Shown piece by piece: positions 50,138 through 62,313 of a DNA stretch of 64,000 nt (position 1 is its first letter; every line of letters starts with the position of its first letter). The position numbers and the translations under genes are program-made. A model generated the notes under the pieces. That model was not told the origin of the DNA, did not search any database, and worked only from the letters and a program-made list of their open reading frames with translations. The stretch spans positions 2,114,789 through 2,178,788 of the forward strand of contig NZ_CP037968.1 in the NCBI RefSeq assembly GCF_019633745.1. The letters run 5' to 3'. Source of the stretch: Methanofollis formosanus (GTDB lineage Archaea; Halobacteriota; Methanomicrobia; Methanomicrobiales; Methanofollaceae).

Positions 50138-51486
50138 GTTTTTAGTCCCTCTTCATTGAATCCGTTCGATAACCCGATCACTTTCCACCGTTTGCAATGT
50201 GTTCCAGGGTGCTATCAACGCCTATTCCTAGGCCGGCATTAACGATGTTTCCAAAGCGACTTTTTTGTATTTCCTTCTGCATTTGTCTTCCGGTCAGTGC
50301 TGGGATTAAGGATTTTGGATTTCTTCCCACGTTTGGAGAAAATATTTTCTTTCCCACTCCTCCTGAAATCGCACCACCACCGGTAGAAACTGCAAGACCT
50401 TCCCAGGAGAATTCTTCCGTACTTCCTGGAACTCCTATTGAAGAAAGCTTGTTTTGTGTATAAGTATCAACACCATACTCAACTGCACCCCATGCAGCAC
50501 CAACAGCAACGGGGTTTAATGATCCCGCTGCGAGTGCAGCCGCCGATCCCCCGGCAAATCCACCCGCTGTACGACCTGCTAATGTGCACCAACTAAACGT
50601 GTTTTCACCAGTTGCTGCATAGGTTCCGATCACCCCCCCTATATACCATGCATCGTTAACAGCAGCGCCGGCAACACCCGGGACCCACCAGACCACTTTT
50701 CCGCTCGGATCCGTAAACCGGACAGGATTATTGTGAACGTACGTGTACCTGTTCAGGCTCGCGGGGACTGAAGCAAACCCGGTGAACGGATCCTTTGAAA
50801 TAAACCGCCCGGTTTCCGGATCATAATACCGTGCCCTGAGATAGATCAATCCGGTTTCAGGATCCATCTGTTCGCCGGTGAACAGGAAATCGTTATCCAC
50901 CGGATCGGTTGTAAGATCCGGTTCGCCAAAGGCATCGTACGAATACGAATTTACGGTGGATCCACTGCTGTCACTCAGATCGCGTACGCTTACCAGCCCA
51001 TCGTACTGATAATAGATCTGTCCTCCCGGAGGATCAGTCGTGGAGATCCGTTGCAGGCCATACAGGGAAAGAGATGTACCCTGTCCATCGGTTTCGGTAA
51101 GAACCTGTGGCAGGCCAGCGCTGACGTCCCATACATACTGGTTACTTTCTGTTGTATTCCCGCTGGTGACGGTTTTGCTGAGACGGTTGCCATCTCCGTC
51201 GTATGCAAAGGTAAGTGAGGTACTTCCCGGCACTGATACGCTGGCCAGTCTGCCGGCAGCATCATACCCATACGACGTTGTCCCATTGGCTTCATTCTTT
51301 TCAATACGGTTGCCGTTGTTGTCATAGGTGTAGGTGGTCCCGCCGGCACTCAGCAACCGGTCACCTGCATCGTACGTGTAGGAAATTGTCGAGCTCGCGT
51401 TACCGGCATTTGTGGCCATACTCAGGCGGTTGCCCATGGGATCGTACGTGTAGGTCACTGTTGTACCGGGGTACGTCACCGTGTGC
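50138..51486 (-). repeat. Direct repeat R, copy inside the full-length Rhs gene
   Basis: Partner of 48031-49379. The unique spacer between the two copies, 49380-50137, holds the membrane-protein gene and almost nothing else. Confidence 0.92.
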
Positions 51487-54400
51487 AGGCGGTTCAGTAC
51501 ATCATACTCGTATGCGGTAGTCAGGGATGAGTTGTCCGGCCCGGTTTCCGTGACCTGCAGGCGGTTCCCGACGGCATCCAGCGTATACGCGTACCCGGAG
51601 ACTACACTCGCTCCATCCTTATTGACCAGGTTAATCAAACGGTTGCCGTTATCATACGTGTATCCCGTCTCTCTCCCGTTGGGATACATCATGTTCACCA
51701 CATTGTCGTTCGCATCGTAACCATAACTGGTCGTGTTGCCGGTCCAGTCGGTCACGCCACTCAGCCTGTCAACGTTATCATATGCGTACGAAACCGTCCT
51801 GCCATCGGGATACGTCATCCCGATCCGGTTGCCGACAGGGTCATAGCCGTATTCCACAAGCTGACCGCCGGGACCGGTAACGCCTGTCAGCCGGTTGAGC
51901 TCGTCATATGCGTAACGCGTCGTCCCGGAACTGTCAGTCATCGCCAGCCGGTTCCCGACAGCGTCATAGGTATAACGAACCGTTGTCAGGTCGTGGTACG
52001 TTATTCCGGTGAGCCGGTTTAACGAATCATACGTGAGGTGGGTTGTGTCTCCATTATTGTCCGTGGAACTGATCGTATTGCCGGCTGCATCGTAGTTGTA
52101 ATTCGTGATATGTCCCAGGGGATCAGTAACGGCGGTCAGGCGGTGCACGGGATCATACGTGTATTGCGTGGTGTGGCCGTTCGCGTCGTTCATCGAAACG
52201 AGGTTATCCACGGAGTCATAGGTGTAACTCACCGTCCCGCTCAGGGGATCGGTGACTTCAGTGAGATGGTTGAGGGGATCATAGGTGTAACGTGTCGTGC
52301 TCCCCATGGCATCGGTAGAGCTGATCCGGTTCCCGACACCATCATAGCTAGAGGTCGCGCTATGGCCTAATGGATCGGTAATACTGAGAAGCCGGTCGAG
52401 TGCATCGTAACTGAACGAACTGGTCTTGCCTCTGGCATCGGTTGCACCAACCTGGCGCCCGACAAGATCATAGGAGAATGTTTCTGTATTCCCAACGGCA
52501 TCGGTGATGTCAATCGGATTGCCATAGGTGTCATAGGTATGGGTGGTACCATGCCCGTTGGCATCCTGGGCATTTATCACCTGTCCGTACTGGTCATACG
52601 TAAAAGTCGTAACAGATCCCAACGCATCGGTAATCTGAACGGGATTGTTGTTTGCGTCGTAGTCGAATGTTTCCTGGCGCCCCAATGCATCCGTGCTGCT
52701 CAGGAGGTTATTCTTTGAATCGTAGGTATGGGTGGAGCTGTGACCTGATGGATCGGTAACCTGGATGATGTTCCCGTTCGCATCATAGGAGGATGTAGTG
52801 GTATGGCCATTCGCATCGGTTGCGCTGATCCTGTTTCCGTTCCCGTCATATGCGTAAGAAATGATATTGCCCAGTGCATCAGTCTCATTGAGCTCCCAGA
52901 AGAGGTCGTTATAGGTGTACAGGGTACTCCTTCCTAACGGGTCGGTTTCGGTCGTTATCCGGTTCTTTGTATCATAACTGAACGTGGTTGCCGCATCCAG
53001 AGCATTGCTCTGGCTGACAACGCGCCCATTGCCATCATACGTATTGGTCACGATCTGGATTTCTCTGGGATTTGTTATTGAGGTCAGCCAGTGGTTCTCA
53101 TCGTACGTATAATCGAAATTTCCGCCATCAGGATTGGTATACCGGACCAGATTATCATCCGCATCATAGGTATACCTCAAAATCCTGCCTATGGGATCGG
53201 TGATTGAAATGATCCGTCCTGCTGCATCATAGGTGAAGGTCAGTTCTCTCCCGGAGGGATCTGTCACCTGAGTGAGATTATTGCCGGTATACGTAAGATT
53301 TATTTGATTCCCATTGGTATCCGCGATATTGATCAGCTGACCTGTCGGGGTAAAGAGATACGTTATGTGATCTTTTCGTTCAAGAGTGTAGGAACCATCT
53401 GCATTCCTGGTCAATATATCGAAGATTCCCGGGGGTGGAGAATAGGTGCCGTTGGAACTGGCATTATACACATCCGTGCGACTGTCTTCCCTGATCACCA
53501 GTATATCTTCACTGCCGTTGATTCCTGCCAGTTTCACGTTGTAATTAAATGTCCAACCGGAACCGAATGGCCCGCTCAGGGGATTCAGAGAATTGTAAGA
53601 ACGGGTAATTGCCAGGGGTAGTCCACGCCCCTCAATGAAGAGATCCTGATACTGGTAAACATAATTCCCGGTTGCGAGATTTACCGGCTCAAAGGAATAA
53701 GCGACATATGGGTTGGATCCTGGAGTGCCGGAAGTGCTCATATTCAGTAAACACGACTCAGTAAGATTTTCGAATATTGGTAATATTGACGATTGATTCT
53801 GCAGGTCGGCAATATACTCTTCCCAGGCGGAGTTACCTATAACATACGTATACGTCCCGGAAGATACCGTATTACCAATCTCGAACTTGCAGAAGTAACT
53901 ATACAAGCCAAAACCGTCATCATAAAGTTCAAGCGGAATAGATCGCCCACCAATAGGCAAACCATCGCCTATCAGATACTTGCCCTGAGGAGGTCCATTG
54001 GGATGACCGGCATCGATGAACCATCCACCGTTAAGTGAATAATGAGTCTCATCATACCACAGTTGACCTGTACCAGCAGCCGTAAACGCATCGTACCACG
54101 CCTGCAACTGCACAGAATTCTGATGAACAACAAAGGGATCCAGATCATACACCGCTACCAACCAATCAACAAACTCAGAATATGGCATAGAGTCACTGGT
54201 CTCCGAATACGCCGCCCACTCCACCATACTCTGACCACCCAGCCCTGAAGGACCGTACACCCAACCATCGTCAGTGAGATACGGGTTGATCCCAGAATCA
54301 ACGTTAACAGCCACCATAGAGTGTTGAACAGTAAACTTGTTGTAATAACCTGGAGCCGGGACAGTATAGTAAGTGGCGCCCTTATCAGGATCATAAATAA

Positions 54401-54551
54401 GACTCTCGTGGTCCCAAAAGGAAACAGCAGAAACAGGAGTAATCGCCAGAAGAAGTGCTATAAGAAGCGTTGTTGCAATTGTGGCGTAGTGATCGAGCAT
54501 AAGGGCCCGCGGGGCATCCTCCCCCCTGGCCCTATCTGACCCCTCAATCAT
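50178..54551 (-). CDS. Large secreted Rhs/YD-repeat protein
   Basis: About 1457 residues. A signal-peptide-like helix (HYATIATTLLIALLLAITPVS) lies near residues 20-42. A unique N-terminal domain is followed by a DUF6531-like segment (PVNLATGNYVYQYQDLFI, GLPLAITRSYNSL). About 35 YD repeats follow, then the Rhs core FTGEQMDPETGLIYLRARYY ending FTDPSGK. A Gly/Ala-rich C-terminal domain of about 170 residues completes it. Such shells normally encapsulate a C-terminal toxin; no catalytic motif is visible here. The start is uncertain: ATG 54551 has GTGAGG upstream and overlaps the previous gene, while ATG 54500 would give a more typical signal peptide. Confidence 0.85.
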   Translation of the reverse strand: MIEGSDRARGEDAPRALMLDHYATIATTLLIALLLAITPVSAVSFWDHESLIYDPDKGATYYTVPAPGYYNKFTVQHSMVAVNVDSGINPYLTDDGWVYGPSGLGGQSMVEWAAYSETSDSMPYSEFVDWLVAVYDLDPFVVHQNSVQLQAWYDAFTAAGTGQLWYDETHYSLNGGWFIDAGHPNGPPQGKYLIGDGLPIGGRSIPLELYDDGFGLYSYFCKFEIGNTVSSGTYTYVIGNSAWEEYIADLQNQSSILPIFENLTESCLLNMSTSGTPGSNPYVAYSFEPVNLATGNYVYQYQDLFIEGRGLPLAITRSYNSLNPLSGPFGSGWTFNYNVKLAGINGSEDILVIREDSRTDVYNASSNGTYSPPPGIFDILTRNADGSYTLERKDHITYLFTPTGQLINIADTNGNQINLTYTGNNLTQVTDPSGRELTFTYDAAGRIISITDPIGRILRYTYDADDNLVRYTNPDGGNFDYTYDENHWLTSITNPREIQIVTNTYDGNGRVVSQSNALDAATTFSYDTKNRITTETDPLGRSTLYTYNDLFWELNETDALGNIISYAYDGNGNRISATDANGHTTTSSYDANGNIIQVTDPSGHSSTHTYDSKNNLLSSTDALGRQETFDYDANNNPVQITDALGSVTTFTYDQYGQVINAQDANGHGTTHTYDTYGNPIDITDAVGNTETFSYDLVGRQVGATDARGKTSSFSYDALDRLLSITDPLGHSATSSYDGVGNRISSTDAMGSTTRYTYDPLNHLTEVTDPLSGTVSYTYDSVDNLVSMNDANGHTTQYTYDPVHRLTAVTDPLGHITNYNYDAAGNTISSTDNNGDTTHLTYDSLNRLTGITYHDLTTVRYTYDAVGNRLAMTDSSGTTRYAYDELNRLTGVTGPGGQLVEYGYDPVGNRIGMTYPDGRTVSYAYDNVDRLSGVTDWTGNTTSYGYDANDNVVNMMYPNGRETGYTYDNGNRLINLVNKDGASVVSGYAYTLDAVGNRLQVTETGPDNSSLTTAYEYDVLNRLHTVTYPGTTVTYTYDPMGNRLSMATNAGNASSTISYTYDAGDRLLSAGGTTYTYDNNGNRIEKNEANGTTSYGYDAAGRLASVSVPGSTSLTFAYDGDGNRLSKTVTSGNTTESNQYVWDVSAGLPQVLTETDGQGTSLSLYGLQRISTTDPPGGQIYYQYDGLVSVRDLSDSSGSTVNSYSYDAFGEPDLTTDPVDNDFLFTGEQMDPETGLIYLRARYYDPETGRFISKDPFTGFASVPASLNRYTYVHNNPVRFTDPSGKVVWWVPGVAGAAVNDAWYIGGVIGTYAATGENTFSWCTLAGRTAGGFAGGSAAALAAGSLNPVAVGAAWGAVEYGVDTYTQNKLSSIGVPGSTEEFSWEGLAVSTGGGAISGGVGKKIFSPNVGRNPKSLIPALTGRQMQKEIQKSRFGNIVNAGLGIGVDSTLEHIANGGK

Positions 54552-55071
54552 CGCCCTCACACTCCTCATCGTTCTGGTCACGCAGTATTGCAATCCTACG
54601 CTGCACCTTAGGCGATGCTAGGATCTCAGATGGCGATGCACGTTGTTGCCAGGTCAGTTTTCCCGTCGCCTTCTCGGTGGCGAGTGCACAGCGCGCCGGC
54701 AGCGATACAGGGCACCCCTCCTTCCCTATAATATCGGACGGGACCCGGAAATTCAAGGTGCTACCCATAATGGGATAAGGCCTGGTAGTAAGGGATATGA
54801 CCACATCAGTGGCATGTTTGAATTCATCGATCGAGTCCCCCGTTGGACGAGTCCCTCGAAGACGTATGTCGGTTGAAGGTATCGTTGTCTTCCTGAGATC
54901 GGCACTGAAAAGACGTTGGTGATTGCAACAAGGATACTCTTCACAGTTAGAAACGTGGGTTTCCTCCTGTAGATCATTATCGTAGGTCACGAACTGCCCG
55001 ATCTGCGGGCAGCTTCCTGCCGCTCCCGCTGGCAGGATGGGTGGCAGTGCCGGCAACATTGCTTTTTTCAT
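54544..55071 (-). CDS. Small exported protein upstream of rhs, unknown
   Basis: 175 residues. MKKAMLPALPPILPAGAAGSC resembles a short export signal with a cysteine, followed by two more cysteine-containing stretches (VSNCEEYPCCNHQRLF) and an acidic end (NDEECEGDD). A strong GGAGGAAG ribosome site lies 6 bases before ATG 55071, and its stop overlaps the rhs start, so the two genes form an operon. No family recognised; a chaperone or secretion helper for the Rhs protein is only a guess. Confidence 0.6.
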   Translation of the reverse strand: MKKAMLPALPPILPAGAAGSCPQIGQFVTYDNDLQEETHVSNCEEYPCCNHQRLFSADLRKTTIPSTDIRLRGTRPTGDSIDEFKHATDVVISLTTRPYPIMGSTLNFRVPSDIIGKEGCPVSLPARCALATEKATGKLTWQQRASPSEILASPKVQRRIAILRDQNDEECEGDD

Positions 55072-55729: not shown

Positions 55730-55950
55730 TTTTGGGCTCTGTAGAATCGGGCATGAACCTTGGGCTCAAGTATATGGGATGAAAAATTTCTCGTCGCTTC
55801 ATCGCCGCCCCCCTATCCTCGTCGTGGGGGGTCCGGGGGCAGAGCCCCCGGCGCGAGACGGCAGGGAAGTTTCTGCAATTGAGGGCGGCACGTCTGATCA
55901 TCACGCCTTCTCACACCATACGCGCCGGATCTCCGGGACGATTTTCATGG
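55730..55950 (+). repeat. Composite GC-hairpin repeat, copy I1
   Basis: Starts with TTTTTTGGGCTCTGTAGAAT. Leader to 55795 (small hairpin region GAACCTTGGGCTC, then GGGATGAAAAATTTC). Type I module 55804-55889 with hairpin 55833-55851. Linker ACGTCTGATCATCACG and a decayed type II remnant (CCTTCTCACACC) follow. Confidence 0.82.
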
Positions 55951-55954
55951 TAAT

Positions 55955-56229
55955 TTTTCATGAACCCCAGGTTCAAGCATACGTGATGAAAATTTCTCGT
56001 CGCTTGATCGCTCTCTTTTCAAGACAGGAGAACCCGTGGAAACCTCACCCCATCGCCGCCCCCACCTATCTTCTGTCCGAGGGGGTCCGGGGGGCGCGGC
56101 CCCCCGGCGCGAGATGGCAGGGAAGATTCTATGATCGGGGCGGCACGTCGGATCATCACGCCTTCCCACATCTTCACGCCGGGGGCTCTGCCCCCGGAAC
56201 CCCCGGGATTGCGATTGGGCCGGGAAGGC
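55955..56229 (+). repeat. Composite GC-hairpin repeat, copy I2 (leader, type I, type II)
   Basis: Leader 55955-56035 with small hairpin TGAACC/GGTTCA and CATACGTGATGAAAATTTC. Type I module 56055-56144 with hairpin 56087-56107. 15-base linker CACGTCGGATCATCA. Complete type II module 56160-56229 with arms GCCTTCCC/GGGAAGGC and hairpin 56179-56197. This is the best complete example of the composite element. A partial tail (TCTCTGCGTATCG) follows to 56285. Confidence 0.85.
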
Positions 56230-56394
56230 AGAAGACAGAATCATTCAGAGGGTGTATTTCTTCTCTGCGTATCGTCCTTGAGGGATCCTGAAGAGGGTAA
56301 GTCATCATCCAGACGTGGAAAGCCGATCATCGGGATCATATTTCCATGAAAACCCCATTGAAATCAGAAATAGAATTCAATGTGTAGGTTTTCA

Positions 56395-56692
56395 TCGGTT
56401 CAGCATGGGGCTCTTGCCTCATGCATATGGGATGAAAATTTCCTGGTGGTCTCTGGTGGGTGGATTCTTGTTCCCTCTTCGGAGCATGAACCACATGGGA
56501 CCGCCACTTCATTGCCGCCCCTCGGCTATCCTCGTCGTGGGGGGTCCGGGGGGTGCAGCCCCCCGGCGCGAGATGACAGGAAAGATTCTGCAATTGGGGG
56601 CGGCACACCTGATCATTCCACCATGCCTTCCCAAACCTCGGTGCCGGGGCGCCGTCCCCGAAACCCCGGGATGAAGATTGAGGCGGGAAGGC
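56395..56692 (+). repeat. Composite GC-hairpin repeat, copy I3/I4
   Basis: Leader 56400-56445 (CATATGGGATGAAAATTTC). Type I module 56514-56604 with hairpin 56546-56566. Type II module 56625-56692 (arms GCCTTCCC/GGGAAGGC, hairpin near 56644-56660). Between leader and module I the usual connecting segment is replaced by unrelated sequence. Confidence 0.8.
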
Positions 56693-56790
56693 GGAAGAGA
56701 GTTCTGTCAGCCAGGTTGCTCTCCTGTGCCGACCTTTCGTTCTTGATGCCTCATAAAGTTACGAAAAAAAAGGGTACAATTATTGTTTTC

Positions 56791-57579
56791 TCAGAGCGCC
56801 CGGATCAGCGACGAACGAGTGACGACGCCGGCGACCCGGTTGTTCCCGTCGGAGATGACCACCGAACTGATCTTCTTCTTGAGCATCAGGTCGATGATCG
56901 CAGAGAGCGACTGCTCTGAGCCGACCGAGATGAGGGGTGCGGACATGATGTCGCGGACCAGGAGGTTCCGGATCCGGTGGTCCTGATATTTCCCCTCGAC
57001 GAGCTGACGGAAAGCCTGCATCGACCTGGCCACATCGGTCTCGGTGACGATCCCGATCGGGTCGCCGTTCTCGTCGGAGACGATGAACCTGGAGAGTCCC
57101 TCGTCCACCATCCGGCGGCGGAGATGGACGACCCGCTCCTCGGCGTTGATGGAGAAGACCGGTTCGGTCACCTCCTTGAGAGAAGTCGAGGGCTGGAGAA
57201 CCCGCAGGAGATCGCCGTAACTCACCTGGCCGATGAGTTTGTGGTCGCTATCGAAGACCACCACGATCTTTGCGTGCTGCAGGAGGGCGGGGAGGACTTC
57301 GATGCCCTGGTCCGGGTAGGCGGCAGTGTACTCGACTGAAACGGTGTTTGCGACGTGGATCTTGGTGGGTGAAATGTCGGAGTTCCGTTTCTTCCCGAGT
57401 TTGTCGGCGATCGCCTCCCGTGAGATGATGCCGATCACCGACCCGTTGTCGGTGACGATGAGGGGGTCGACATTCTCGTCCAGCATCTTTTCGAGAGCAT
57501 CGGTGATGGGTGCGGACTTGGCGATGGTGACTGGTTTGGTCATCACGTCCTTGATGTAGATGTACATGTCTTCGCTCAT
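56791..57579 (-). CDS. Four-CBS-domain protein (fifth in operon)
   Basis: 262 residues forming two Bateman modules. Repeats read KDVMTKPVTIAKSAPITDALEK, then three further units, each ending in a GIIS/GQVS/GIVT/GVVT strand such as DPIGIVTETDVARSM. CBS pairs usually bind adenosine nucleotides or SAM and act as sensors. No enzyme or membrane domain is attached. ATG overlaps the previous stop by 4 bases. Confidence 0.93.
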   Translation of the reverse strand: MSEDMYIYIKDVMTKPVTIAKSAPITDALEKMLDENVDPLIVTDNGSVIGIISREAIADKLGKKRNSDISPTKIHVANTVSVEYTAAYPDQGIEVLPALLQHAKIVVVFDSDHKLIGQVSYGDLLRVLQPSTSLKEVTEPVFSINAEERVVHLRRRMVDEGLSRFIVSDENGDPIGIVTETDVARSMQAFRQLVEGKYQDHRIRNLLVRDIMSAPLISVGSEQSLSAIIDLMLKKKISSVVISDGNNRVAGVVTRSSLIRAL

Positions 57580-58415
57580 TTTGCCACTTCCTGTAAGATA
57601 TTGTCCCGTTTCACGATACCGAGGATTTCGTTTCCTCGAGTAATGACCACGCTGTTGATGCGGTGGTCGACCATCATTTGCACCGCCTCGGCGGCGGTGG
57701 TCTCGGGGGGAGCGGTCAGGACCGGGTGGGTCATGAAGTCCTCCGCGATTGCCGAGACTTCAGCTACATACCTGAATGCCTTTCTTCCACCAGATGCTTC
57801 TTTCCTCAGCATTTTTATATCTTTTTCGGGTATGCCCCCGGACTCGTTCGCGTATTCGAAGAATGCGAGGTTGGTTTCGGTGATGATACCCGCGAGGGTT
57901 CCGTTGTTGTTGATAACAACCAGTTTTTCATCCCGCTCTGAGAGGAGGTCGATGATGTGGTCGAGGGAGTGATAACGGTTCACGATCACGGCCTCCTCCA
58001 TCAGACCGGTGACCGGCACGCTGAGGGTGCCCGCCGCCTCCGACCTGAGGACATCTGCCTTGGTAACGATACCGAGGAGTTCTCCCTCTTTGACCACCGG
58101 CAGGCCGCTGACCATCCGGTCGATCATGATGGCGGCGACGTCCCGGATCCCGGTCTCCGGCCCGATGGTCATGGGCTCGTGGGTCATCAGAATGGAGACC
58201 GGGATGCGGTCGATCGGCCTTCTCCGCCAGACCGGTTCGGTCTGACGGAGGCGATGGCCAAGATCCTTTTTGGTGATGATCCCCACGATGTGGTCCCCTT
58301 CCATGACCGGAAGGCGAGAGATCTTGTGTTTGATCATCAGGTTTCTCGCATACGCGGCCGTGTCATCTGGCGCGACCACTCTGACCGGTGATGACATCAC
58401 CTCCTCCGCCTTCAT
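57576..58415 (-). CDS. Four-CBS-domain protein (fourth in operon)
   Basis: 279 residues, four CBS units (AEEVMSSPVRVVAPDDTAAYA; SILMTHEPMTIGPETGIRDV; a central LMEEAVIVNRYHSLDHI; AEDFMTHPVLTAPPETTAAE). A longer helical linker (residues about 200-225, GIPEKDIKMLRKEASGG) separates the third and fourth. ATG 58415 has AGGAG 8 bases upstream; GTG 58424 overlaps the previous stop and is an alternative. Confidence 0.92.
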   Translation of the reverse strand: MKAEEVMSSPVRVVAPDDTAAYARNLMIKHKISRLPVMEGDHIVGIITKKDLGHRLRQTEPVWRRRPIDRIPVSILMTHEPMTIGPETGIRDVAAIMIDRMVSGLPVVKEGELLGIVTKADVLRSEAAGTLSVPVTGLMEEAVIVNRYHSLDHIIDLLSERDEKLVVINNNGTLAGIITETNLAFFEYANESGGIPEKDIKMLRKEASGGRKAFRYVAEVSAIAEDFMTHPVLTAPPETTAAEAVQMMVDHRINSVVITRGNEILGIVKRDNILQEVAK

Positions 58416-58420
58416 CTCAT

Positions 58421-59362
58421 TCACTCCTGGGAAAACGCTTTTACCAGATCAAATTCGGTAATCAGGCCGATCAGTTTCCCGTCTTCGATGACCGGGAGTG
58501 CACCGACCTTTTTCTGCAGCATCTTCAGTGCCGCATCATTGATGTTGGTCTCAGGGACCGTGGTGTACAGGTCGCCTGAGACGAGCGTGCGAACCGGCAG
58601 GGCCATCACTTCACCCACGTCGCCGGTGGAGAGTCTGTTGAAAATCTCGCCGTTCCCGAGATATTTCATGATGTCCGATGCCGTAACAATCCCGAAAAGG
58701 ACGTCGTCGGAGACGATGGGAAGACGCCTGAACCCGTGTGCGATCATCTCCCTGGTGACGGTACCGATGGGTGTGTCGGGACCGGTGACCCGCAGGCCGG
58801 CGCTCATCACCTCTTCGACCACGACGTCGGTCTCCTCGGTGGCGAGTGCCTTCATGACATCGCGCTCGGTGACGATCCCGACGACAACCTCCTCGTCGTT
58901 CACGATCGGCAGACCACCGATCTTCTGAGTGACGATCGTCTCGGTGACCTCGGCGACCGAGGCCGAGTCCGGGATGGTCCTGACCCGCTGGGTCATGATC
59001 GACCGGACGCTCTCGTTGATCGCGGCGATGAGGTTACCGTGGTGTTTGACCCGCACGAGGTTGTAGTGGTCTCCTCCGCCGAGGAGGTCGATGATGTCCC
59101 GTGCGGTGACGATCCCGCGCAGACGGTGGGTTCCGGCGTCGGTGATCGGAAGCCTGCGGAACCCGTAACTTGTCATCATCTCGACGGCATCGATGATGCG
59201 GGTGGTTGGTGGGGCCGAGATCACATCTCTGGTCGCGACGCCCATCACTTCTCCATCGGTCTCAAAGACGCGAGACTTGAAATCGATCGGGCCGCGGTCC
59301 AGTTTTCCGGGCATTTTCAAGAGTTTGTCGCCCTGCTTTGTGTTCTGCCAGTTCTGGTGCAT
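58421..59362 (-). CDS. Four-CBS-domain protein (third in operon)
   Basis: 313 residues. An N-terminal extension of about 40 residues (NWQNTKQGDKLLKMPGKLDR) is followed by four CBS units with GIVTARDIIDLL, GIVTERDVMKAL, GIVTASDIMKYL and GLITEFDLVKAF. A T/D pair in each site is the usual ribose-binding pattern of nucleotide-binding CBS domains. AAGGA lies 8 bases before the ATG. Confidence 0.93.
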   Translation of the reverse strand: MHQNWQNTKQGDKLLKMPGKLDRGPIDFKSRVFETDGEVMGVATRDVISAPPTTRIIDAVEMMTSYGFRRLPITDAGTHRLRGIVTARDIIDLLGGGDHYNLVRVKHHGNLIAAINESVRSIMTQRVRTIPDSASVAEVTETIVTQKIGGLPIVNDEEVVVGIVTERDVMKALATEETDVVVEEVMSAGLRVTGPDTPIGTVTREMIAHGFRRLPIVSDDVLFGIVTASDIMKYLGNGEIFNRLSTGDVGEVMALPVRTLVSGDLYTTVPETNINDAALKMLQKKVGALPVIEDGKLIGLITEFDLVKAFSQE

Positions 59363-59366
59363 AGCA

Positions 59367-60125
59367 TCATTCCTTCACGTTGAGCCCTTTCAATACGCCA
59401 TGCCTGTCGATCATCCCGACAAGGTTTTTGCCGTCCATGACCGGCATCTGCGATAGATCGTGCTCGACCATGCGCTCTGCTGCTGCTCTGATCTGCTCTG
59501 CAATGTCGATCGTGATGGGCGGCGTCACCATGACGCTCTCGACCGGCACCTTCCCCCCCCGTTCAAGGCTTTTTCGTACCCTGCCGTTATTTAAGATGTC
59601 CCTCCTCGAGATGATCCCGGTGAGGGTATTGTTCTTCATCACTGCGAAGGCGGTGATGTTTCTGTCGAGCATCTGTGCATAGACCCTGCCGACGGTTTCC
59701 GAGGCCTCGCAGACCGGCGGGGGTCGGAGCATATAGTCTCCGATCTCGCCGCGGAGGTTCTCACGCGTGCAGAGAACCGGAAAGATCTCTGAGAGCATCA
59801 CACTTCCCAGCACGTTCCGATCATCGTCTACGACGGTGGCAGTGTCGGTCCCGTTCTCCCGGATCGCCTGGGCGACCCGGATGAGAGGCAGGTCGGATGG
59901 GACCGTGGTCCCTTCGCGGACAAAACCCTCGATGAGCACATCGGACTTTGTCTCGGTGATCTTCAGCACATCGGTGATGTCGATATACCCGACATAACGC
60001 CCTCTGGCATTGGTGATCGGGATCTCACGGAAGATATCGTCGCGCAGCACCTGGCGTGCCCTGGTCATGGGGTCGCCTGTGGTGAGGACCGGGGTCTTCA
60101 CCATCATATCTTCAGCCACCTTCAT
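59367..60125 (-). CDS. Four-CBS-domain protein (second in operon)
   Basis: 252 residues. CBS units: VAEDMMVKTPVLTTGDPMTR, EGFVREGTTVPSDLPLIRV, IGDYMLRPPPVCEASETVGR and VESVMVTPPITIDIAEQIRA. GGAGGAG lies 8 bases before ATG 60125, which overlaps the first gene's stop by 4 bases. Confidence 0.93.
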   Translation of the reverse strand: MKVAEDMMVKTPVLTTGDPMTRARQVLRDDIFREIPITNARGRYVGYIDITDVLKITETKSDVLIEGFVREGTTVPSDLPLIRVAQAIRENGTDTATVVDDDRNVLGSVMLSEIFPVLCTRENLRGEIGDYMLRPPPVCEASETVGRVYAQMLDRNITAFAVMKNNTLTGIISRRDILNNGRVRKSLERGGKVPVESVMVTPPITIDIAEQIRAAAERMVEHDLSQMPVMDGKNLVGMIDRHGVLKGLNVKE

Positions 60126-60685
60126 CTCAAGCGCTCCTCCTCCCGACAGTCTTCACACAGCAGCATTGAGTCCACCTGTATAAGGTTGTCGCTCATTTGC
60201 CCGCACCGGTCGCAGACGCCCATGGCAAAGTTCTCGTCGCGGTTGATGACGATCAGGTCGGACATCACCTCGTTGAGTTCGTTTGCAACGGAAAGCAGGT
60301 CCCTGACCGTGACGATCCCGGTCACTTTCCCGTCTTCGACCACCGGCAGTCTTCTCACCCGGTGCTGAATCATCATCTGTGCAGCTTCCCCAACCGTTTG
60401 TCTGGTCTCGATAGTGATCAGAGGCGTGCTCATGATCTCCTTGACATACACTGAACTGGGTTTGAGATCCTTTGCGACGACCTTGCAGTTGATGTCCTGC
60501 TCGGTGACGATTCCGGTGGGAATGTTCCCTGAAAGAACGATGCAACTCCCGACCTCATCACGGCACATGTGGGCTGCGGCTTTTGCGACCGTTGCCTCAG
60601 CCTCGATGGTGGTGGGGTTGACCCTCATTATTTCCTTCAGTGGAACTCTTGTTTCAAGGTACATCGTGTCTCGTCCATTTGACAT
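60122..60685 (-). CDS. Two-CBS-domain protein with C-terminal zinc ribbon (first in operon)
   Basis: 187 residues. One Bateman module (residues 14-125, GIVTEQDINCKVV and GIVTVRDLLSVA) precedes a C-terminal CxxC pair ribbon, CDRCG ... LCEDCREEE. It differs from the other four in having only two CBS units and a metal-binding tail. GGGGTGA lies 5 bases before ATG 60685. Confidence 0.93.
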   Translation of the reverse strand: MSNGRDTMYLETRVPLKEIMRVNPTTIEAEATVAKAAAHMCRDEVGSCIVLSGNIPTGIVTEQDINCKVVAKDLKPSSVYVKEIMSTPLITIETRQTVGEAAQMMIQHRVRRLPVVEDGKVTGIVTVRDLLSVANELNEVMSDLIVINRDENFAMGVCDRCGQMSDNLIQVDSMLLCEDCREEERLR

Positions 60686-60749
60686 GAGTTCACCCCGAGG
60701 GTCGCTGTTCTCTGGATAATTCCAGACAAAACACTACTATGAGATTCCC

Positions 60750-60762
60750 CTATAAAAGAATA
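60750..60762 (-). promoter_or_regulatory. Promoter of the CBS operon
   Basis: On the minus strand ATTCTTTTATAGG contains TTTTATAG. The predicted start near 60728 gives a leader of about 40 bases before ATG 60685. Confidence 0.55.
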
Positions 60763-60838: not shown

Positions 60839-60892
60839 AGGTGAGCAATCTTCTAATGAATAGATGGTAATTTTTGTATAGGGGATGGAGTA

Positions 60893-61534
60893 ATGAATTT
60901 TCTGTTTCGGGCAAAAGCGAAGGCATCTAAATTCTTCCGGACGTTCTTCGGAAAGAAACACTCACGGATCGGGATTTATGGCCCTCCCAACGCAGGGAAG
61001 ACCACGCTTGCCAATAGAATCGTGAGAGACTGGAGCGGCGACGCGGTCGGGCCGGTGAGCGAGATACCCCACGAGACCCGGCGGGCCCGTCGCAAAGAGG
61101 ACATCACGATCACCGGGACGAACGGGAGTTCAATCTCAATCGATATCGTCGATACCCCCGGCGTGACGACCAAGATCGACTATCATGAGTTCCTGGAGTA
61201 TGGCCTGGAGAAGGACGAGGCGGTCAGGCGGGCCAGGGAAGCGACCGAAGGTGTCGCTGAGGCGATGCACTGGCTCCGCGGCGATCTCGACGGCGTCATC
61301 TATATGCTCGACTCCACGCAGGATCCCTTCATGCAGGTGAACATCATGATGATCGGGATCGTCGAGAGCAGGAAACTCCCGGTCGTGATCGTCGCCAACA
61401 AGATCGATCTCCCGGACGCTGCGCCGCAACGGATCAGGTCCGCCTTCCCCCAGCACCCGGTGGTGCAGATCTCAGGGATGGAGGGGAAGAATGTCGAATC
61501 GCTCTATGAAACGATGACTCAGGTCTTCGGGTGA
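60893..61534 (+). CDS. Era-like small GTPase, ArvA/OapA family
   Basis: 213 residues. The N-terminal 22 residues (FLFRAKAKASKFFRTFFGKK) form a basic amphipathic helix suited to membrane binding. G motifs: G1 GPPNAGKTT at 30-38, G3 VDTPG near 82, G4 NKIDLP near 170, G5 SGMEGKN. Homologues in Haloferax were reported (from memory) to drive extracellular vesicle formation together with the two genes that follow here. The role in this organism is inferred. Confidence 0.85.
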   Translation: MNFLFRAKAKASKFFRTFFGKKHSRIGIYGPPNAGKTTLANRIVRDWSGDAVGPVSEIPHETRRARRKEDITITGTNGSSISIDIVDTPGVTTKIDYHEFLEYGLEKDEAVRRAREATEGVAEAMHWLRGDLDGVIYMLDSTQDPFMQVNIMMIGIVESRKLPVVIVANKIDLPDAAPQRIRSAFPQHPVVQISGMEGKNVESLYETMTQVFG

Positions 61535-61539
61535 TTCAG

Positions 61540-61914
61540 ATGATCCAGGGAGTCCAGATCGATTTTGTCTCTGCGGATAGAATGGAGAGATTGGGGGTGA
61601 TGGAGAAGATCAGGCTGATCCTCGACAATGTCAGGGCCGGCCGGATCGTCGTGCTCGAGCGCGGGCTTGCCCCTGAGGAGCAGAGCAAGCTTATCGAAGT
61701 GACGATGATGGAGATCAGTCCCGGTGGTTTTGCAGGGATAGAAATCGAGACCTATCCGGCGAAGGATGGGGGCGAAGGGTTCGGAGGCTTTTTATCCAGG
61801 TTTGTAGGGAGGAAACCTGAAGAGTCCAGGCTCACGGTGATCGGGCCGGCAAACCAGCTCAAAACCTTGAAAAAGGACGAGGGCCTGATCAGTGCATGGG
61901 TCTCCTCACGGTGA
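61540..61914 (+). CDS. DUF2073 protein, OapB/ArvB family
   Basis: 124 residues. MIQGVQIDFVSADRMERLGVME, VLERGLAPEEQSKLIEVTMM, and a Gly-rich loop (GGEGFGGFLSRFVG) are typical of DUF2073, always found beside the Era-like GTPase. ATG 61540 has GGTGA correctly spaced; GTG 61531 overlaps the GTPase stop. The biochemical function is unknown; a partner of the GTPase is inferred. Confidence 0.85.
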   Translation: MIQGVQIDFVSADRMERLGVMEKIRLILDNVRAGRIVVLERGLAPEEQSKLIEVTMMEISPGGFAGIEIETYPAKDGGEGFGGFLSRFVGRKPEESRLTVIGPANQLKTLKKDEGLISAWVSSR

Positions 61915-61920
61915 GGTGAA

Positions 61921-62313
61921 ATGCCACATAAGTGTACCAGGTGCGGACGGGAATTTGAAGACGGTTCGACCGAGATCCTGAAGGGCTGTCCCAGTTGTGG
62001 AGGCAAGAAGTTCCTCTATGTCAGGGATGAGCGACGGCACGATGATGTGCTGGAGGAGAAGTCGGTCGAAGAGATCGCCGAAGAAACCGGTGAAGAGGCG
62101 CTTGAGGTCAGGGACGAGGCGCCCGGGCCGGTAGACTGTTATGAGCGCGTCGAGTCGATCCGTATCGTCGGCCCTGGGTCTTATGAACTGAATATCGAGA
62201 AACTCGCCCAGAGCGATGATATGGTGGTCGGTCTGGGGAATGAAGGGAAGTACATGGTCGATATCCTCTCTATGGGTCGAGAGCGTCGGAAACGACGTTT
62301 TTGGAAGGACTAA
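61921..62313 (+). CDS. Zinc-ribbon protein, OapC/ArvC family
   Basis: 130 residues. N-terminal zinc ribbon CTRCG ... GCPSCGGKKF (residues 5-28), an acidic middle (EEIAEETGEEALEVRDEAPG), and a C-terminal beta domain (ESIRIVGPGSYELNIEKLA) ending in the basic RERRKRRFWKD. Third member of the GTPase trio, 6 bases after the second. Confidence 0.85.
   Translation: MPHKCTRCGREFEDGSTEILKGCPSCGGKKFLYVRDERRHDDVLEEKSVEEIAEETGEEALEVRDEAPGPVDCYERVESIRIVGPGSYELNIEKLAQSDDMVVGLGNEGKYMVDILSMGRERRKRRFWKD

Follow-up and report, generated by a model that had tools for sequence, protein, structure and literature searches.

CBS-domain gene array of Methanofollis formosanus as a probable ribosome-hibernation cluster with a zinc-ribbon partner

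The array and its surroundings

A 64,000-nucleotide window of the Methanofollis formosanus genome holds five open reading frames, designated g1 to g5, that lie end to end on the minus strand from position 60685 down to 56791 (Table 1). There is a 4-nt overlap (ATGA) at g1/g2 and at g4/g5, and 4 nt separate g2 from g3, which bears out the initial annotation of five consecutive genes with overlaps or gaps of a few bases. The start of g4 as listed, a GTG, gives a 4-nt overlap with g3; read by eye, the ATG at 58415, preceded by AGGAGTGA, is the likelier start. The TATA-like element ahead of g1 is identical in three of four aligned Methanofollis-type sequences, the exception, L001, carrying a single change. 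A sigma-70 scan was set aside as uninformative for an archaeon.

Table 1. Features of the array region, in coordinates of the window
Feature	Position	Strand	Description
g1	60122..60685	-	187 aa; CBS pair, then C-terminal CxxC-CxxC zinc ribbon; first gene of the array
g2	59367..60125	-	252 aa; four CBS units; ortholog of PDB 9znf chain 4 (SriA by chain order); CM-5 by cluster order
g3	58421..59362	-	313 aa; four CBS units; ortholog of 9znf chain 5 (SriB by chain order) and MJ1225; CM-4 by cluster order
g4	57576..58424	-	282 aa from GTG, 279 from ATG at 58415; four CBS units; ortholog of 9zni chain 6 (SriC); CM-1 by cluster order
g5	56791..57579	-	262 aa; four CBS units; ortholog of 9zng/9zni chain 7 (SriD); CM-2 by cluster order
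g1 zinc-ribbon cysteines C158, C161, C177, C180	60146..60214	-	invariant in 33/33 aligned orthologs
g3 N-terminal tail, residues 1-36, DRGPIDFKSR motif	59255..59362	-	predicted disordered
TATA-like promoter element before g1, ATTCTTTTATAGGGGA on minus strand	60746..60761	-	conserved in Methanofollis-type sequences
8-T run directly after g5	56764..56771	-	candidate transcription end, from sequence reading
Divergent operon: small GTPase (ArvA-like), OapB/ArvB, OapC/ArvC	60893..62313	+	outside the array

The CBS units of g1 to g5 number 2, 4, 4, 4 and 4, in agreement with the 18 first proposed. PF00571 is the sole Pfam family matched in all five products, where 16 stretches pass individually. A whole-genome scan with this model (E <= 1e-3) recovers 17 of the 18 units, CBS2 of g5 being the one missed, and thereby 15 of the 16 in g2 to g5, each of which is one chain with four units; these 17 are part of 49 CBS matches in the entire 2.97 Mb genome. 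All four units are visible in the model of g3. Pfam matches include no enzyme, kinase or channel among the five genes, and the only zinc ribbon is that of g1, both as initially described. In ortholog alignments A1 to A5 (33, 33, 25, 24 and 27 sequences), the [T/S]xxD nucleotide motif is present in at least 85% of sequences for 10 of the 18 units and is lost in 8. The motif-intact sites are all four in g3, both in g1, and one or two in each other protein, a pattern that makes a nucleotide-sensor role plausible for part of the array.

Relationship to ribosome-bound and other CBS proteins

A sequence search of the PDB matches g2 to 9znf_4 (E 3.6e-24), g3 to 9znf_5 (E 3.6e-80), g4 to 9zni_6 (E 2.7e-58), and g5 to both 9zni_7 (E 2.9e-33) and 9zng_7 (E 3.2e-33). 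By their titles, which together with the chain sequences are our evidence on these structures, the three cryo-EM entries show the Methanosarcina acetivorans 70S ribosome with SriA and SriB (9znf), SriD (9zng), and SriC and SriD (9zni). The four chain segments are matched exactly by four consecutive ORFs in the Methanosarcina genome G346 (5.75 Mb), which follow the order g2-g3-g4-g5 and have a g1 ortholog just upstream. G346 has the same four genes in the same order, with the same upstream neighbor, as Methanofollis. The G346 ORFs, however, stand some 260 to 430 nt apart, whereas those of Methanofollis overlap or nearly so, and identity of the Methanofollis array to a close relative (L078) is about 27-45%. 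In phylogenetic trees g2, g4 and g5 each form a single clade (100/99), as does g3 together with MJ1225 (100/100). By sequence comparison and tree, g2, g3, g4 and g5 are the one-to-one Methanofollis-type orthologs of SriA, SriB, SriC and SriD. The Sri entries name pairs, not one five-subunit complex.

Our literature search, limited in coverage, returned no relevant paper on SriA to SriD. Passages of Madru et al. 2026 (PMC13324472) describe a CM-5/4/1/2 cluster in methanogens, likely encoding ribosome-hibernation factors, and report CM-1 and CM-4 in dormant M. acetivorans ribosomes. From gene order, loss pattern and these passages we infer that g2 corresponds to CM-5, g3 to CM-4, g4 to CM-1 and g5 to CM-2; the CM order, on this text-based mapping, fits the G346 array and the complete arrays counted below. 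The CM families of that cluster, as described there, are four-CBS proteins, to which the Methanofollis array adds the CBS-pair protein g1. The initial statement that no function had been assigned to such an array was overtaken in 2026 by 9znf, 9zng, 9zni and the passages cited.

HibA of the Thermococcales resembles the Sri-type proteins in that its CBS module serves ribosome hibernation, but it has a C-terminal HPF/RaiA domain that g1 to g5 lack; searches found neither this domain nor HibA, the alternative factor, elsewhere in the Methanofollis genome. The HibA profile used was built from the C-terminal region in 12 HibA loci because PF02482 proved too weak a detector (18/246). Outside families f9 and f14, HibA turns up in none of the 111 genomes that carry g3; the exceptions are f14, where all four genomes have HibA and the full array, and f9, where 42 of 43 have HibA and g3. 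The distributions of HibA and the array are complementary, though exclusion is not strict. As to the closest array member, the best tree lacks a grouping of g2 with HibA (p-AU 0.44) and contains one of g4 with HibA, at a support of just 65/80; the AU test rejects no topology. Dri of Pyrobaculum calidifontis (9e6q, 9e7f) also places CBS discs on the ribosome and shares the fold of g3 (Z 23.2 and 23.5), but with two CBS modules in one chain rather than in separate genes. Elsewhere, the consulted text of PMC12607858 refers to a CBS protein of haloarchaea that carries a hibernation-factor domain, and that of PMC12605026, on a PurH-aEF2 50S dimer in M. acetivorans, does not contain the term "CBS".

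Gene order and module losses

The gene-neighborhood survey recommended at the outset shows that 139 of the order's 150 genomes have g3. Across the phylum, 125 loci from 122 genomes were compared, and 78 of them hold the complete array with its gene order unchanged. Layout and tail counts set aside 30 short loci (L005-L034), L004, L121, L080, L174 and the HibA loci L155-L166, and the 125-locus survey also sets aside three named loci, L001-L003; in all locus counts, g2, g4 or g5 scored as absent is absent from the fetched stretch, not from the genome. All five f8/g67 loci, drawn from genomes where g1 was matched and g3 was not, have g1, g4 and g5 without g2 and g3; three loci have g2 and g3 by themselves; and the layout g1-g2-g3 occurs in f7, f18 and part of f16. 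In these loci g2+g3 and g4+g5 appear and disappear as units that correspond to the cryo-EM pairs, a pattern of which we found no earlier report. A natural g3-g4 fusion is seen in L103 and L104.

All 98 loci that contain g2 encode the N-terminal tail of g3, against 4 of the 30 that lack g2. The comparison comes down to three or four independent contrasts on supported branches, about two in the same direction and none in the opposite one (p 0.5). The tail may tend to accompany g2, a lead that is not significant. On the other side of the array, the divergent ArvA/OapB/OapC operon adjoins g1 in every one of the 47 loci from the order. A replication-origin link through OapB and OapC was dropped, since the nearest of four Orc1/Cdc6 genes over the cut-off lies about 250 kb off and the homologous operon is named ArvABC, a vesicle-formation operon, in the text of PMC10927574 consulted.

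Role of the array and its fifth gene

The array is very probably the methanogen CBS-module ribosome-hibernation cluster, extended by a CBS-zinc-ribbon partner, g1. Because g2 to g5 are counterparts of ribosome-bound proteins in a related methanogen, the most likely task of the array is to park ribosomes at times of low energy. We infer for Methanofollis that, under energy or nutrient shortage, four-CBS discs would dock on 70S ribosomes standing idle, as either the g2+g3 or the g4+g5 pair, and that the docked pairs would occupy functional sites, holding the ribosome inactive and protecting it. AMP, ADP or ATP in the intact CBS sites would most likely tune loading or release, a step weakened by HibA, which in the passages of PMC13324472 binds AMP while neither AMP nor ATP clearly changes its ribosome binding. 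The multi-subunit nucleotide sensor first envisaged thus survives as joint function, through conserved order and ancient paralogs, and as sensing by some members; it missed the ribosome as target, and the evidence points to pairs, not a five-subunit complex. A CBS array of previously unassigned function would become a testable energy-to-translation switch in methanogens.

An alternative is an adenylate sensor, similar to AMPK gamma, that the five proteins would form free in the cytosol to regulate an enzyme encoded elsewhere, with ribosome contact only secondary. MJ1225 (3kh5, 3lfz), deposited as a putative archaeal gamma-AMPK homolog, is an ortholog of g3 (E 5.5e-60; structural Z 35.7 over 277 residues, rmsd 2.0), with an alignment that begins past the g3 tail, residue 40 of g3 pairing with residue 6 of MJ1225, and every CBS unit of g3 and g1 keeps its motif. 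The array, however, brings no kinase or other enzyme, orthologs of four of its five proteins are in ribosome structures, and the motif losses touch nearly half of its units, so we consider this reading unlikely. Under the hibernation reading, MJ1225, an old orphan structure, gains a likely role through its orthology to g3. Another view would leave ribosome hibernation in the Methanofollis lineage to a single pair, or to just g3 and g5, the other genes being kept for a different task. It draws on 11 of 47 Methanomicrobiales loci that have just g1, g3 and g5, and on others that lose g2 or g4 singly; such retention of one member per pair is a poor fit to strict pairs. Yet all five genes are intact in the window, in same-genus loci L035 and L036, and in named Methanofollis loci L001 and L002, and we regard this view as very unlikely. 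It is also very unlikely that the array members regulate transcription in the manner of HhpR, which in Pyrococcus is a stand-alone regulator made of a CBS module: HhpR falls in family CM-3 of these modules and its NCBIfam model matches the array weakly, best in g3 (69.4 bits), but the NF053603 scores of 27-69 bits fall far under the 520-bit cut-off, g2 to g5 have orthologs on ribosomes, and the passages of PMC13324472 keep CM-3 apart from CM-1/2/4/5. A recent duplication in place, with no function shared among the copies, was the refutation offered initially. It has in its favor the single domain family common to all five proteins, and it is rejected, because the paralogs are ancient (19-34% mutual identity), sort one to one into five ortholog groups that wide score gaps separate, and keep their orientation and relative order across the phylum, in loci of 20 families.

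With g2 to g5 of a recently known kind, g1 stands apart in a well-conserved array, and the analysis isolates a widespread fifth gene, two pairs evolving as units, and CBS sites that may still be nucleotide-competent. The most widespread array member, g1 has both of its adenylate motifs intact and its four cysteines conserved, which marks a real zinc ribbon with a predicted metal site. PDB matches, including the ribosome structures that hold g2 to g5 orthologs, contain no g1 ortholog; the literature search, of the same limited coverage, returned nothing on a CBS-zinc-ribbon protein of this type in ribosome hibernation; and the main text of PMC13324472, as consulted, lacks the word "zinc" and does not treat a g1-like CBS-pair protein. 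Within the hibernation cluster g1 would most likely work alongside the pairs, regulating them or serving as an adaptor that reads adenylates, and not as a ribosome plug. More specifically, and tentatively, g1 might be an unreported fifth hibernation component that reads AMP/ATP through its two intact CBS sites and whose ribbon recruits, loads or releases the retained pair, in which case the whole array would work as one energy sensor that operates two plugs, either of which could fill the ribosome. The domain order of g1, with the CxxC-CxxC ribbon after the CBS pair, is that of Ta0289 (1pvm, 2qh1), which has CBS units and a rubredoxin-like ribbon; by sequence (E 2.7e-9) and Foldseek (E 1.6e-12) scores the two are similar but not orthologous.

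Composition and conservation of the array

The initial annotation described five nearly gapless CBS genes whose products carry nothing else apart from a zinc ribbon on the first. All five open reading frames were found at the coordinates given there, on the minus strand, CBS is the sole Pfam family in their products, and 17 of the 18 units ascribed to the array were recovered by a CBS scan (E <= 1e-3) of the 2.97 Mb genome, which gave 49 matches in total. Among named relatives, Methanofollis records are the nearest, which makes the source a Methanofollis-type member of Methanomicrobiales. We designate the genes, in transcript order, g1, a CBS pair with a C-terminal ribbon, and g2 to g5, with four CBS units each. 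The ribbon cysteines are unchanged in 33/33 aligned g1 orthologs, and the predicted g1 fold, CBS pair plus ribbon, resembles the structure Ta0289.

Features of the array and its surroundings (positions in the window)
Feature	Position	Strand	Description
CBS array, g1-g5	56791-60685	minus	
Divergent operon	60893-62313		small GTPase, OapB, OapC
Inverted pair	60746-60761 / 60870-60885		16 nt, 88% complementary; near starts of g1 and divergent GTPase gene
G+C-rich repeats	55811-56701		several copies (families D3, D5, D8, D12), immediately downstream of array
ORF	50178-54593	minus	1471 residues; product presumably an RHS/YD-repeat protein

Within Methanomicrobiales, g3 occurs in 139 of 150 genomes and 35 of 35 genera, almost always in single copy. 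We fetched the surroundings of g3 at 125 loci in 122 genomes, and this gene-neighbourhood survey, of the kind proposed initially, found g1-g5 complete and in order at 78 loci, 29 of 47 within the order and 49 of 78 outside it. The reduced sets were g1-g3 (14 loci), g1-g3-g5 (11), g1-g2-g3 (9), g1-g2-g3-g5 (4), g1-g3-g4-g5 (4), g2-g3 (3), g3-g5 (1), and g2-g3-g4-g5 (1). Recent local duplication is excluded as the origin of the array, since the paralogs in the window share only 19-34% identity with one another and their orthologs fall into cleanly distinct groups.

Two of the nine g1-g2-g3 loci (L103 and L104, genomes G337 and G224) hold a natural g3-g4 fusion, a single ORF of about 630 residues with two modules per protein, as in Dri, the CBS ribosome factor of Pyrobaculum calidifontis; both genomes carry a second, complete array elsewhere (L094, L114).

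Ribosome-bound orthologs

A sequence search of solved structures matched chains 4, 5, 6, and 7 of PDB entries 9znf, 9zng, and 9zni to g2, g3, g4, and g5, one each, and returned no g1 ortholog among its matches. By their titles, obtained when the g3 model was searched against known folds, these entries (released 2026-01-28) are Methanosarcina acetivorans 70S ribosome complexes with SriA and SriB (9znf), SriD (9zng), and SriC and SriD (9zni). SriD is therefore chain 7, which leaves chain 6 as SriC by elimination; chain order would make chain 4 SriA and chain 5 SriB. A literature search for SriA-SriD found no paper. Among 30 genomes of one Methanosarcina-type genus, the 9znf_5 segment matched at 100% in one (G346; 5.75 Mb, one contig), where four successive ORFs, in the order g2-g3-g4-g5 and directly preceded by a g1 ortholog, contain stretches identical to the four chain segments. 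The array is most likely a conserved ribosome-hibernation cluster, a kind of cluster known since 2026, with g1 as a possible component.

Madru et al. 2026 (PMC13324472) divide CBS modules into families CM-1 to CM-6 and describe a CM-5/4/1/2 gene cluster in methanogens. They report (citing Nissley 2025) CM-1 and CM-4 proteins in dormant M. acetivorans ribosomes, term the role of CM-2 unresolved, and state that some methanogens have lost CM-1 and CM-5, a loss published for gut species; the word "zinc" is absent from the main text. Transferred to g2-g5, the published order would make g2 CM-5, g3 CM-4, g4 CM-1, and g5 CM-2. This mapping agrees with the reported loss because some loci of families f2 and f6 lack both g2 and g4. 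Both are missing at 9 of 13 f2 loci (L037, L042, L045, L054, L072, L170-L173), including some in genomes of about 3.2 Mb.

Pairing and gene loss

The entry titles pair SriA with SriB and SriC with SriD, and genome content agrees with these pairs. Three f8 genomes of genus g67 (G331, G340, G343; L111, L120, L135) hold g2 and g3 apart from the other members; five further g67 genomes (L178-L182), in which g3 was not found, have g1, g4, and g5 at the locus; and f7, f18, and part of f16 have g1-g2-g3 without g4 and g5. A strict pair rule is contradicted by the many Methanomicrobiales that retain g3 and g5, one from each pair.

Residues 1-35 of g3 form a tail that is predicted to be disordered but contains a DRGPxxFKSR-like motif conserved among orthologs. 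Loci with g2 have this tail in 98/98 cases and loci without g2 in 4/30, which only suggests that it functions together with g2, because independent contrasts number 3-4 in all (about 2 in the same direction, 0 opposite; p 0.5).

Solitary g1, without any of g2-g5, was seen at 10/10 loci read in f10 (L183-L188, L190, L191) and f23 (L189, L195); a Rad51/RadA-type gene adjoins it at both loci with neighbours checked (L185, L189). At L125 and L126 two complete g1 copies are fused in tandem (about 421 residues), and some f6 genomes of genus g16 lack g1 and retain g3 and g5.

Nucleotide binding, HibA, and the adjoining operon

Nucleotide-binding CBS units bear a [T/S]xxD motif. For 10 of the 18 units, 85% or more of the orthologs aligned retain it: both in g1, all four in g3, CBS1 and CBS2 of g4, and CBS3 of g2 and of g5. 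The genome-wide search covered g1 and g3, the most widespread of the genes searched, with g1 profile matches in 193 of 246 phylum genomes and g3 in 158 (E <= 1e-35). The ortholog of g3 among solved structures is MJ1225, which was deposited under the label of a putative gamma-AMPK from archaea. According to PMC13324472, the CBS module of HibA, an alternative hibernation factor, bound AMP (Kd 12 uM), and ribosome binding by HibA showed no clear change with nucleotides. Nucleotide control of the array proteins is thus at most plausible.

The published exclusion pattern between array and HibA recurs with exceptions; being lineage-clustered, this recurrence does not count as independent statistical evidence. 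Against the reported mutual exclusion, four f14 genomes (G157, G166, G175, G181) have the complete five-gene array and HibA together.

The GTPase-OapB-OapC operon adjoins the CBS array in 47/47 loci of the order and 16/78 outside, and matches the haloarchaeal vesicle-formation operon ArvABC described in PMC10927574.
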